Source: Verrucomicrobiota bacterium (lineage in GTDB: Bacteria > Verrucomicrobiota > Verrucomicrobiia > Opitutales > Opitutaceae). From it: a stretch of 32,413 bases of DNA. This document shows positions 3,050-19,683 of this stretch, piece by piece. The translations under genes were made by a program, and so were the position numbers. The notes under the pieces were generated by a model. That model was not told the DNA's origin. It worked only from the letters and a program-made list of their open reading frames with translations, and did no database searches. Position 1 is the first letter of the stretch, and the number at the start of each line of letters is the position of its first letter. The stretch is from NCBI GenBank assembly GCA_028293565.1, contig JAQGON010000078.1, forward strand, positions 1-32,413. The letters run 5' to 3'.

Positions 3050-4087
3050 TCACTCCAGCTGATAATCCTTGTGCGCAAGATGGTAGTCGAGCGTCAGCCT
3101 GATGGCCGTCTTCAGGTTCACCTTCGGCGTCCAGCCGAGCCGTTTCTTCGCGTTCGCGATCGAGGGGACCCGCTTCTGGATGTCCTGGTAGTATTTTCCG
3201 AAGTACTTGCCCGAGGGCACAACGACCGTCTTCGCCTTCGCGGCGTGCTCGCGGTACTCGGGATAGTTCCTGAACGCGGCGATGATCAGCTTCGCCAGCT
3301 CGGCGACGCTCACGTCGTTCCGCGGATTGCCGAGGTTGAAGATCTGGCGCGAGGCGCAGCCGTCCTTGTTCTCGATGATCCGCAGCAGGGCGTCGACGCC
3401 GTCGTCGATGAAGGTGAAGGAGCGGCTCTGGCGCCCGCCATCGACGAGCTGCAGCGGCTTCTGGAAAATCACGTTGGAGATGAACTGGGTGAACAGGCGC
3501 GAGCTGCCCTCCTTCGGCTCCATCACGTCGTCGAGCTTCGGGCCGATCCAGTTGAAGGGGCGGAAAAGCGTGTAGTCCACGTTGTCGCGCACGCCGTAGG
3601 CGTAGATCACCCGGTCGAGCAGCTGCTTCGAGCACGCATAGATCCAGCGCTGGCGGTCGATCGGGCCGTACACCAGCGACGTCGTGGCTTCGTCGAGCTT
3701 GGCGTCGGTGCTCATGCCGTAGACCTCGGAGGTGGAGGGAAAAATGATCCGCTTCCGGTATTTCGCGCACTGGCGGACGACCGCGAGGTTCGCCTCGAAA
3801 TCGAGCTCGAAGACACGCAGCGGATCCTTGACGTACTGGATCGGGTTCGCGATCGCGACGAGCGGGATGATCGCGTCGCATTTCTTCACGTGATACTCGA
3901 TGTACTCGCGGTTGATCGTGATGTCGCCCTCGACGAACTTGAAGCGCGGATCGCCGAGGCTGTCCTCGAGCTTATGGCTGCCGATATCCATGCCGTAGAC
4001 CTCCCAGTTCTTCTGCTTGAGGATGGCGCGCGTCAGGGAGCTGCCGATGAATCCGTTCGCGCCGAGAATGAGAACTTTGAGAGGCAT
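3050..4087 (-). CDS. arnA: UDP-glucuronate decarboxylase/dehydrogenase (ArnA C-terminal domain as a separate protein)
   Basis: A short-chain dehydrogenase/epimerase-fold protein of 345 residues matching the C-terminal half of Proteobacterial ArnA. That domain oxidises UDP-glucuronic acid with NAD+ and decarboxylates it to UDP-4-keto-pentose, the first dedicated step to L-Ara4N. Visible: the nucleotide motif GANGFIG near residues 9-15; PSTSEVYGM at 117-125, with the Ser-Glu pair known as catalytic in ArnA (Ser120, Glu121); and Y-ACS-K at 150-154. FRPFNWIGP and the C-terminal GWTPK also match the family. The ATG at 4087 is chosen because homology begins at MPLKVLILGANGF; an in-frame GTG at 4105 would add six residues. 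In E. coli this domain is fused to the formyltransferase; here the two are separate genes in the same order as the fused domains. Confidence 0.92.
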   Translation of the reverse strand: MPLKVLILGANGFIGSSLTRAILKQKNWEVYGMDIGSHKLEDSLGDPRFKFVEGDITINREYIEYHVKKCDAIIPLVAIANPIQYVKDPLRVFELDFEANLAVVRQCAKYRKRIIFPSTSEVYGMSTDAKLDEATTSLVYGPIDRQRWIYACSKQLLDRVIYAYGVRDNVDYTLFRPFNWIGPKLDDVMEPKEGSSRLFTQFISNVIFQKPLQLVDGGRQSRSFTFIDDGVDALLRIIENKDGCASRQIFNLGNPRNDVSVAELAKLIIAAFRNYPEYREHAAKAKTVVVPSGKYFGKYYQDIQKRVPSIANAKKRLGWTPKVNLKTAIRLTLDYHLAHKDYQLE

Positions 4088-15142: not shown

Positions 15143-17206
<2,064 letters not shown>

Positions 17207-17380: not shown

Positions 17381-17809
17381 TCAGGTGTCGTTATCGCCGA
17401 TTGATTCCAAAAGACGCCGCAGTTCGGGACTGACGTGACGCAGTTCCGCCAGATGCGCGGCGGACAGCTGGCTGATCATTTTTTCGCCCTTGGGAGTGAT
17501 TTTCACCTCGATCCTCCGTCGATCGGCCTTCGAAGGCACCCGGCGGAGCAGCTGGCGCTTCGCGAGGCGATCGATCAGCCCGACGGCGCTGTGATGCCGC
17601 AACTGGAGGCGCTCTGCGATTTCCCCGATCGAAGCGGGATCCCTTCCCGGAAAACCCTTGATCGCCAGCAGGGCCTGGTGCTGCTGCGGCGTCAGGCCCG
17701 TCTCGCGCGCCTTTTCCTGGCTGAAACGCTGGAATCGGCGGAGCGCATGGCGCCATGCGGCCAGGAGCTCGTAATGCGATTGCGAAAGCCGCGGTCGGGA
17801 GGAGGCCAT
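17381..17809 (-). CDS. MarR-family transcriptional regulator
   Basis: A 142-residue winged-helix regulator. Helix 1 and the dimer helices span LSQSHYELLAAWRHALRRFQRFSQEKARETGLTPQQHQALLAI. The DNA-binding part contains ASIGEIAERLQLRHHSAVGLIDRLAKRQLLRRVPSKADRRRIEVKITPKG, with the recognition helix around RHHSAVGLIDRL and the wing DRRRIEV, both typical of MarR. Such proteins usually bind palindromes and release DNA upon ligand binding or oxidation. It is divergent from the CLC-family gene; a perfect 15-bp palindrome (17865-17879) and a 16-bp palindrome touching its own start codon (17810-17825) lie between them. The ATG at 17809 is preferred; a TTG at 17851 would place the second palindrome inside the gene. 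Confidence 0.88.
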   Translation of the reverse strand: MASSRPRLSQSHYELLAAWRHALRRFQRFSQEKARETGLTPQQHQALLAIKGFPGRDPASIGEIAERLQLRHHSAVGLIDRLAKRQLLRRVPSKADRRRIEVKITPKGEKMISQLSAAHLAELRHVSPELRRLLESIGDNDT

Positions 17810-17825: not shown

Positions 17826-17856
17826 AAACGCGCGTCGGCCGGATGGCACAACCCTT

Positions 17857-17883
17857 TTGAGTTGTATCGTAGTACGATATAAT
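17857..17883 (+). promoter_or_regulatory. Promoter of the CLC-family gene
   Basis: TATAAT at 17878-17883 is a perfect -10 hexamer. A -35 of TTGAGT (17857-17862, spacer 15) or TTTTGA (17855-17860, spacer 17) is possible. The predicted transcript start, about 17890, lies only about 9 nt before the ATG at 17899, so the mRNA would be almost leaderless. Confidence 0.6.
17865..17879. promoter_or_regulatory. Palindromic operator, probably for the MarR regulator
   Basis: TATCGTAGTACGATA is a perfect inverted repeat of 7 bp around one central base. It lies between the -35 and -10 of the clc promoter and overlaps the first two bases of the -10 box. It is also in the marR upstream region. Size and position fit a MarR dimer site repressing both genes; the binding itself is inferred. 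Confidence 0.6.
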
Positions 17884-17898
17884 TACTCGTCTCCCTTT

Positions 17899-19683
17899 AT
17901 GCCAGCCCAAGCCGCCGCGCACCCGCCCTCCGCCCTGTCCGATTTCAGCACCGACCGCCGGGTGCTCCTGCTTTGCGCGCTCGCCCTGCCGGTCGGCGCA
18001 GCCGGCGCCGTGATCGCCAAGGCGCTCCTCTGGCTCATCGCCGTGATCACGAACGCCTCGTTCTTCCTCCGGTTTTCGTCCGCCCCCGCGGCGCCCGAGG
18101 CGAACGCTCTCGGCCTGGCGGTCATCCTCGTGCCCGCCGTCGGCTCCCTGCTGATCGGGCTGATGGCGCGCTACGGTTCCGAAAAAATCCGCGGTCACGG
18201 CATCCCGGAGGCGCTCGAGGCGATTCTCCTCGGCAGGAGCCTGATCGACCCGAAGGTCGCCGTGCTGAAGCCCGTGTCCTCCGCGATCTCGATCGGCACC
18301 GGCGGACCGTTCGGCGCGGAAGGGCCGATCATCATGACCGGGGGGGCGCTGGGATCGATCTTCGCCCAGCGCTTTCACCTCTCGGCCGCCGAGCGCAAGA
18401 CGCTCCTCGTGGCCGGAGCCGCCGCGGGGATGTCCGCGGTTTTCGCGACGCCGGTCGCCGCCGTGCTCCTCGCGGTCGAACTCCTGCTTTTCGAGTGGAA
18501 GCCGCGCAGCTTCATTCCCGTGGCCGTCGCCGCGATCGCCGCGTCAATCCTGCGTGTTCCCCTTCTGGGCGAAGGACCGATCTTTCCCGTGCCGCCCCAT
18601 CCGTCGCTTGCGCCGGCGGCGCTCGGCTTTGCGGTGGTGATCGGCGTGGCGGCGGGCCTCGGCTCGGGGCTTCTCACCGGGCTCGTCTATGCCTGCGAGG
18701 ATCTGTTCGCGAAGCTGCCGGTTCATTGGATGTGGTGGCCCGCGATCGGCGGCCTCGTGGTGGGCGTCGGCGGCTACCTCGACCCGCGCGTGCTCGGAGT
18801 CGGGTACGGCACGATCCATCATCTGATGCTCGGCCAACTGCTGGGCGCGTCGCTCGTGGCGCTGGTCGTCGCCAAGGGCCTCGTCTGGGCCGTCGCGCTC
18901 GGCTCGGGCACTTCGGGGGGCGTGCTCGCGCCGCTGCTCATGATCGGCGGAGCCATTGGCGCCCTCGTGGGCGCGCGTTCGGGAATCGGCGATCCGGGAC
19001 TGTGGGCGATGGTGGGCATGGCGGGAATGATGGGCGGAACGATGCGTTCGCCGCTGACCGGAATGGTCTTCGTCCTCGAGATGACGCATGACCTCAACGC
19101 GCTGCCGGCGCTCCTCATCGGCAGCGTGGCCGCGCTCTGCGTGACCGTGCTGCTCCTGCGCCGGTCGATCCTCACCGAAAAACTCGCCCGCCGCGGCCAG
19201 CACATTGCGCGCGAATACAGCGTCGACGTATTCGAGCTCTCCCGCGTCGCCGACGTGATGGATCGCCATCCGCCAATCGTGCCGGCGTCGATGTCCGTCG
19301 CCGCGCTGTCCGACCGGATCGCCGCCGGCGATCCCGCGCTCGCCGGCCGGCAAGGCACGCTGCTCGTCGATCCGGACGGAAACCTCGCGGGCGTGGTCAC
19401 CCGGGGCGATCTCATGCGCGTCCTCCAGGACGGAAACGCCAGCCGCGTTCCCCTGGGCGAGATCGCGGAGAAAAACCTCGCGGTGGCTCACCCCGATGAG
19501 ACGCTGCACGATGCCATCGCGAAAATGCTGAAGCGGGACGTCGGTCGCCTGCCCGTGGTCGAGCGCGCGAATCCGAACAAAATCGTCGGTTACCTCGGCC
19601 GCGCCGACATTCTCGCCGCCCGCAGGCGCCTGCACGAGGAGGAGGAACACCGGGAAAGGGCGCCGTTTGCGCGCCGCGCCTGA
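17899..19683 (+). CDS. CLC-family chloride channel/antiporter with C-terminal CBS pair
   Basis: A 594-residue membrane protein of the CLC family. The anion-path motifs are GHGIPEALEAI (99-109), GAEGPIIMTGG (139-149) with the gating Glu141, and GSGTSGGVLAPLLMIGG from residue 335. The first motif has His100 where classical chloride CLCs have Ser (GSGIP). The C-terminal part from about residue 447 holds two CBS domains (VADVMDRHPPIVPA... and EIAEKNLAVAHPDETLHDAIAKML...), which usually bind adenine nucleotides and regulate transport. It may be a channel or an H+-coupled exchanger, and the anion is not fixed by sequence. The ATG at 17899 lies 15 nt after a perfect TATAAT and has no ribosome binding site. 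It is divergent from and probably controlled by the marR gene. Confidence 0.9.
   Translation: MPAQAAAHPPSALSDFSTDRRVLLLCALALPVGAAGAVIAKALLWLIAVITNASFFLRFSSAPAAPEANALGLAVILVPAVGSLLIGLMARYGSEKIRGHGIPEALEAILLGRSLIDPKVAVLKPVSSAISIGTGGPFGAEGPIIMTGGALGSIFAQRFHLSAAERKTLLVAGAAAGMSAVFATPVAAVLLAVELLLFEWKPRSFIPVAVAAIAASILRVPLLGEGPIFPVPPHPSLAPAALGFAVVIGVAAGLGSGLLTGLVYACEDLFAKLPVHWMWWPAIGGLVVGVGGYLDPRVLGVGYGTIHHLMLGQLLGASLVALVVAKGLVWAVALGSGTSGGVLAPLLMIGGAIGALVGARSGIGDPGLWAMVGMAGMMGGTMRSPLTGMVFVLEMTHDLNALPALLIGSVAALCVTVLLLRRSILTEKLARRGQHIAREYSVDVFELSRVADVMDRHPPIVPASMSVAALSDRIAAGDPALAGRQGTLLVDPDGNLAGVVTRGDLMRVLQDGNASRVPLGEIAEKNLAVAHPDETLHDAIAKMLKRDVGRLPVVERANPNKIVGYLGRADILAARRRLHEEEEHRERAPFARRA

Follow-up and report, generated by a model that had tools for sequence, protein, structure and literature searches.

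A conserved palindrome between divergent marR and clc genes as the putative operator of a compact anion-transport switch

A marR gene and a clc gene diverge from a short intergenic region in a Verrucomicrobiota contig, with a palindrome lying on the clc promoter. What does this palindrome control, and which signal would release that control? The original prediction read the segment 17855–17899 of the window (the whole 32,413-nt stretch of DNA analysed) as a MarR-type repressor site on a nearly leaderless clc promoter, and this segment does hold the palindrome, a TATAAT box and the clc start. From sequence comparison we consider it highly likely that the neighbouring MarR uses the palindrome as its operator and thereby represses clc.

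The palindrome, TATCGTA-G-TACGATA (TATCGTAGTACGATA, 17865–17879, no strand assigned), has two 7-nt arms on either side of G17872, and the exact or a near-exact pattern is kept upstream of most marR relatives compared. A −35-like TTGAGT (17857–17862, plus strand) ends 2 nt ahead of it, and the first two bases of the clc −10 box TATAAT (17878–17883, plus strand) are its last two, so the overlap with a perfect TATAAT had been correctly recognised. The other end of the palindrome is overlapped by a weak −10-like TACAAC (17861–17866, minus strand) that may belong to marR; this hexamer is TACAAT in two relatives (G006 and G007) and TATAAT in another (G033). TTGAGT and TATAAT are separated by 15 nt. 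A promoter and terminator scan of the window returned no match; the scanner takes spacers of 16–18 nt, so a promoter with the 15-nt clc spacer would escape it. With up to 3 mismatches the 15-mer was expected 0.03 times and found at one place on both strands of the 32-kb window. Across the 4.16-Mb genome TATCGTANTACGATA occurs once, and one further place, C164:354 within a predicted ORF, is added when 1 mismatch to TATCGTNNNACGATA is allowed. In this genome the marR–clc switch looks local.

The regulator gene (17381–17809, minus strand) encodes a 142-aa MarR-family winged-helix protein without cysteine (PF12802, E 4.4e-16), whose 59.2 bits against a cut-off of 27 place it within the MarR-domain family. 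It is divergent from clc as anticipated; its ATG at 17809 lies 55 nt from the palindrome rather than the 56 nt first given. The best NCBIfam MarR equivalog score was 42.8 bits against a cut-off of 200, so the protein is not an orthologue of such an equivalog. An AlphaFold model (pLDDT 89.3) retrieved MarR-type regulators among the Foldseek matches listed, and these generic matches held no clue to the ligand. A thiol-sensing MarR of the OhrR type was considered and rejected: the window protein is free of cysteine, and the 8 of 58 relatives that hold any carry it in scattered columns. Further out, the pair is flanked by genes for CstA and a transglutaminase-like protein. The CstA gene (15143–17206) is on the same strand as marR and begins some 175 nt past its end; CstA is also encoded close to marR–clc in two other loci (L118 and L119).

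Conservation of the site was followed in a GTDB scan for marR relatives, in which related genomes are not independent. By their titles the loci come from Verrucomicrobiota, Chloroflexota, Alpha-, Beta- and Gammaproteobacteria, Acidobacteriota and a few others. In the top 80 of at least 508 relatives, the 250 nt ahead of marR contain TATCG-N5-CGATA exactly in 61 and with up to 1 mismatch in 69, while dinucleotide shuffles gave 0.00 exact and 0.62 at up to 1 mismatch and the reversed pattern gave 0. Letters 3–5 (TCG) and 12–14 (GAT) are identical in all 69 sites, which were themselves selected at up to 1 mismatch. A CLC relative is present in 65 of the 80 loci, divergent from marR in every one. 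Eleven loci have no site within the 250 nt: two carry it farther upstream beside clc (L145, L149), two carry a symmetric variant, and in the remaining seven clc is not in the stretch read, which is short in L123 and L164. The two variants, both from Acidobacteria (L182 and L192), read TATGTCGTA-A-TACGACATA about 90 nt upstream of marR, with both arms altered alike at the second letter from either end of the 15-mer. These two loci alone among 58 MarR sequences have Asn at MarR position 61, which makes the altered site and Asn61 a candidate recognition pair and suggests a testable recognition rule; the two variants may be a single event. On a Klebsiella plasmid whose marR is without clc (L311), the marR match is preceded at 57 nt by TATCACA-A-TGTGATA, whose arms are likewise altered alike. 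The repressor-site reading thus gains from the cross-phylum footprint, the position between −35 and −10 and the symmetric variant, all of which would suit a site bound by MarR.

The strict pattern TATCGYANNRCGATA occurs in 37 of 49 MarR genomes, at a single place in 31 of these, and its reversed control gave 5 strand matches in 4 of the 49. Among 286 genomes sampled from the class, 25 of the 41 with MarR carry the strict site versus 22 of the 245 without. Eleven of the 16 MarR genomes that lack it were read; nine have a looser site and two have none (G263, G364). Five of the 22 MarR-free genomes with the strict site were examined (G298, G128, G155, G274, G229), and in each the site is in or at the edge of predicted ORFs, most likely by chance. 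One genome (G158, L265–L272) has eight strict sites besides that of marR, with no shared gene type found among them. Nineteen marR loci from the class sample, which overlap partly in genomes with the 80, show the exact looser site in 12 and a site with up to 1 mismatch in 17; clc is on the same strand in 5 (L291, L299, L300, L301, L304) and divergent in 6, and no CLC is in the stretch in 8. The operator serves as a genomic marker of the module.

The genome of the window was also compared with its relatives, 57 genomes in all. This MarR is found at 48% identity or more in 11, and this CLC at 42% or more in the same 11 (Fisher p 5.4e-12, kinship left uncorrected). The two genes diverge in the window and in four relatives, are tandem in G015 and are unlinked in five. 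Ahead of marR, 9 of the 11 have a site with no more than 3 mismatches to TATCGTANTACGATA; G017 has only candidates with 4 mismatches some 700 nt upstream, and in G030 the site is behind marR, ahead of an HPP gene. Among the unlinked clc genes, those of G016 and G018 retain a site, and that of G030, which carries an in-frame stop, has a weaker one. No site within 2 mismatches was found at the clc start of G014 or G017, the match in the latter covering residues 145–589 only.

The product of clc (17899–19683, plus strand) is a 594-aa CLC channel or transporter with two CBS domains (PF00571) and clear membership of the Voltage_CLC family (PF00654, E 5.5e-78; 263 bits, cut-off 24.8). It scores well below the NCBIfam ClcA and ClcB equivalogs (150.9 against 350, 226.7 against 482 and 125.5 against 425 bits). 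In a phmmer alignment with Escherichia coli ClcA, Glu148 is retained as Glu141, Ser107 corresponds to His100 and Glu203 to Leu195; we take Ser107 to be the selectivity serine and Glu203 the proton glutamate. The signature of a ClcA-type H+/Cl− exchanger, Ser107 in GSGIP together with Glu203, is thus absent. The motifs GHGIPE and GAEGP recur in all 64 CLCs covered among the 80 loci, and residue 195 is Leu in 62 of them, with one Val and one Gln, so that the Glu203 equivalent is Glu in none. Both motifs are also present in 7 of 7 plasmid copies, two of which have Val195. None of 19 other CLC paralogues has GHGIPE or GAEGP; all 19 have GREGP and six have GSGIP. Comparison of these sequences places the window CLC in a distinct branch. 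Loss of the inner glutamate alone does not decide between channel and exchanger, and we know of no physiological role for most bacterial CLC proteins. Near clc, 14 of the 80 loci have a 128-aa protein without a Pfam family and 12 a class I methyltransferase, as for example in L122 (4973–5997).

Which other genes carry the site, or adjoin the pair? It precedes genes for Cys/Met PLP enzymes in G014, G018 and G030, for cysteine synthase-like proteins (PF00291) in L140 and L188, for a GST-like protein and a sulfite reductase hemoprotein in G016, and for HPP proteins in G030 and G145, in the last of which a CLC follows. A cytidylate-kinase-like gene is behind the site in L126, and in G033 if a later start codon is used; with the same proviso, a cbb3-like oxidase gene in G014 is divergent from marR with a site ahead of it. 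Raw counts of neighbours in the 80 loci, given without a background, are 9 for HPP, 9 for Crp-like, 4 for DUF2249, 4 for DGC, 3 for cysteine synthase and 1 for a quinol-type NO reductase. Since the strict site occupies one place in most genomes that have it, this wider gene set speaks for few lineages. NO sensing by way of hcp was considered and downgraded, as this gene is just a neighbour in G016: it lies ahead of marR in the same orientation, and the site falls between the two, before marR. HPP proteins have a role in nitrite transport of cyanobacteria and chloroplasts, according to excerpts of PMC7438415. In L097 (4203–7563) and L093 (2378–5905) a diverged cbb3-like oxidase and a FixO-like cytochrome c are near marR; the L097 oxidase scores 240 against a ccoN cut-off of 583, and these could be an unrecognised type of oxidase or NO reductase.

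Plasmids carry the module as well. A MarR relative is present in 154 plasmid records, of which we examined 10. The pair adjoins genes for sulfite reductase and peroxiredoxin, metB and cydAB in Mesorhizobium, is near genes for DUF488 and HPP proteins and metB in Rhizobium rhizogenes, and is accompanied by metB in Novosphingobium. In R. leguminosarum, Acidiphilium, Methylocella and Sphingobium the pair is present with none of these sulfur, HPP or oxidase-type neighbours, and no CLC was found within 5 kb in Rhodococcus, Klebsiella or Bradyrhizobium. The Rhodococcus plasmid (L310) has two exact sites, at 3732 and 4914; one of them precedes marR, the other a DUF3040 gene. On an R. rhizogenes plasmid a 1-mismatch site (L316, 13158) precedes a cluster of LLM flavin oxidoreductase and ABC transporter genes, presumably of sulfonate type by its look.

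The prediction of a compact anion-transport switch stands, and for its inducer candidates can be named. The sites and neighbours at sulfur-enzyme, HPP and terminal-oxidase genes in some lineages hint at cyanide, nitrite/NO or a sulfur compound. We therefore suggest, tentatively, that the inducer may be a small respiratory or haem poison or a reactive sulfur or nitrogen species (cyanide, nitrite/NO, sulfite or sulfide); any single member of this class would be an unlikely choice taken alone. The neighbour set recalls cyanide-induced clusters, but nitrite/NO and sulfur stress would fit equally. The channel might carry an anion related to the inducer. CLC proteins are classically chloride transporters, and a plain switch for chloride or acid homeostasis, induced by chloride, pH or an osmotic cue and with the sulfur and respiratory neighbours as lineage-specific extras, is possible if rather doubtful. 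It would suit this reading that the strict site occurs once in the window's genome, at marR–clc, and at a single place in 31 of 37 genomes that carry it; the recurrence of sites at sulfur-enzyme and HPP genes argues against it, as do the His at ClcA Ser107 and the absence of Glu at Glu203 in 64 of 64 CLCs, unlike the 19 GREGP paralogues. The fullest form of the poison-type reading is a long shot: a module spread across phyla and carried partly on plasmids, whose Cys-free MarR would sense a respiratory poison or its product (cyanide or thiocyanate, nitrite/NO, or sulfite) and derepress a CLC of new ion selectivity, with His for the selectivity serine and no proton glutamate, which would transport that anion and in some lineages act together with poison-tolerant oxidases and sulfite reductase.

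How would the switch work at the promoter? A MarR dimer on the palindrome would cover the clc spacer, part of the clc −10 and the probable marR −10; because the site lies between −35 and −10, it should block clc and probably marR too, so that bound MarR would repress both genes until a ligand frees it from the operator. In 62 of the 65 divergent clc loci distances could be measured, and a TTGN hexamer ends 1–5 nt ahead of the palindrome in 52 of these. A −10 matching at least 4 of 6 letters, two of which the palindrome supplies, recurs at the offset seen in the window in 32 of 37 loci with a short leader and 19 of 25 others, and several Chloroflexota loci have TTGAAT-N17-TATAAT with the palindrome as spacer. 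A non-standard promoter spacer can need a regulator's help, and the 15-nt spacer of the window would accord with a MarR that activates clc, or one that represses itself alone with clc constitutive. We regard this as improbable, given that the palindrome overlaps the −10 itself and that in Chloroflexota it fills a normal 17-nt spacer, where a bound protein would be expected to occlude polymerase.

Under the repressor reading, clc translation after release would start near the 5′ end of a short-leader mRNA. The clc ATG (17899–17901) follows the −10 box by 15 nt (17884–17898, plus strand), as predicted, and this stretch is without GGAG, GAGG or AGGA, in agreement with the proposed lack of a ribosome binding site. 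From the −10 position, transcription is predicted to start near 17890, leaving a leader of about 7–9 nt. Excerpts of PMC3160421 give as a criterion for leaderless genes a TANNNT about 12 nt ahead of the start codon, counted from its first T; the distance in the window is 21 nt, which argues for such a short leader rather than a truly leaderless mRNA, so the "nearly leaderless" claim survives in its milder form, with the comparison of 37 loci behind it. In these 37 of the 62 measured loci clc starts no more than 24 nt behind the site, with a Shine-Dalgarno core in one; in 35 the start is 10–24 nt behind it, and the other two (L120, L160) have doubtful starts. Four loci (L127, L130, L139, L180) would come to 13–14 nt if the −10 is at the same offset, where their letters fit poorly. 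Judged by title, Verrucomicrobiota account for 33 of these 37 loci, and Proteobacteria and Anaerolineales for one each, while none of the 25 longer-leader loci, 16 of which have a Shine-Dalgarno core, has a verrucomicrobial title. In these sequences the operator is shared and the translation start differs: short and without Shine-Dalgarno mainly in Verrucomicrobiota, ordinary in Chloroflexota and others, a natural comparison for near-leaderless initiation. That the clc message begins farther upstream, or is translated from ATG 17755, to which the frame is open, with the short leader an artefact, is very improbable, as such a frame would run through part of marR plus the operator, the starts in those 37 loci lie close to the site, and the relatives G006, G010 and G018 have no ATG, GTG or TTG in frame upstream of the equivalent of 17899, which makes 17899 the likely start.

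Classical divergent MarR autorepressor modules such as PecS–pecM have a palindromic operator over their promoters. The divergence of PecS–pecM is described in excerpts of PMC6391409. The marR–clc pair shares with such modules the divergent regulator and membrane transporter, the palindrome over the promoters and the MarR fold; it differs in its CLC target, its operator TATCGYANTRCGATA and the absence of a conserved cysteine. The window CLC has PF00654 and the gating glutamate (E141, equivalent to E148) in common with E. coli ClcA and ClcB-like CLCs. Unlike ClcA, however, it has GHGIPE instead of GSGIPE, GAEGP instead of GREGP, Leu195 at Glu203 and a C-terminal pair of CBS domains, and unlike ClcB-like CLCs it stays, at 226.7 bits, below the cut-off of 482 of their model. 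We found no description of the pair, the operator or the GHGIP motif in the accessible portions of the open-licence PMC literature.

Two cyanide-induced clusters offer a likeness in gene content, as far as excerpts of the sources go: the cio cluster of Pseudomonas pseudoalcaligenes (PMC6368324, PMC5333837), which the surroundings of the Mesorhizobium pair resemble (PMC6368324) and which holds a cysteine synthase, as found beside some MarR–clc pairs, and PA4129–34 of P. aeruginosa, with NirA and CcoN4 (PMC12688703). Some MarR–clc pairs similarly adjoin a sulfite/nitrite reductase hemoprotein and a cyanide-insensitive or orphan terminal oxidase. MpaR controls PA4129–34, and GntR-family (mocR) genes are part of the cio cluster; in those excerpts neither is described with a CLC or a MarR. 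Since one CLC branch has, across phyla, a regulator of its own and an operator that hardly varies, a single protein and a 40-bp DNA would suffice to test for the inducer, and hence the purpose. Set beside these systems, marR–clc has an ordinary architecture with an unusual target and reach: its operator is conserved, and judging by the sequences compared, it is very probably a repressor switch.
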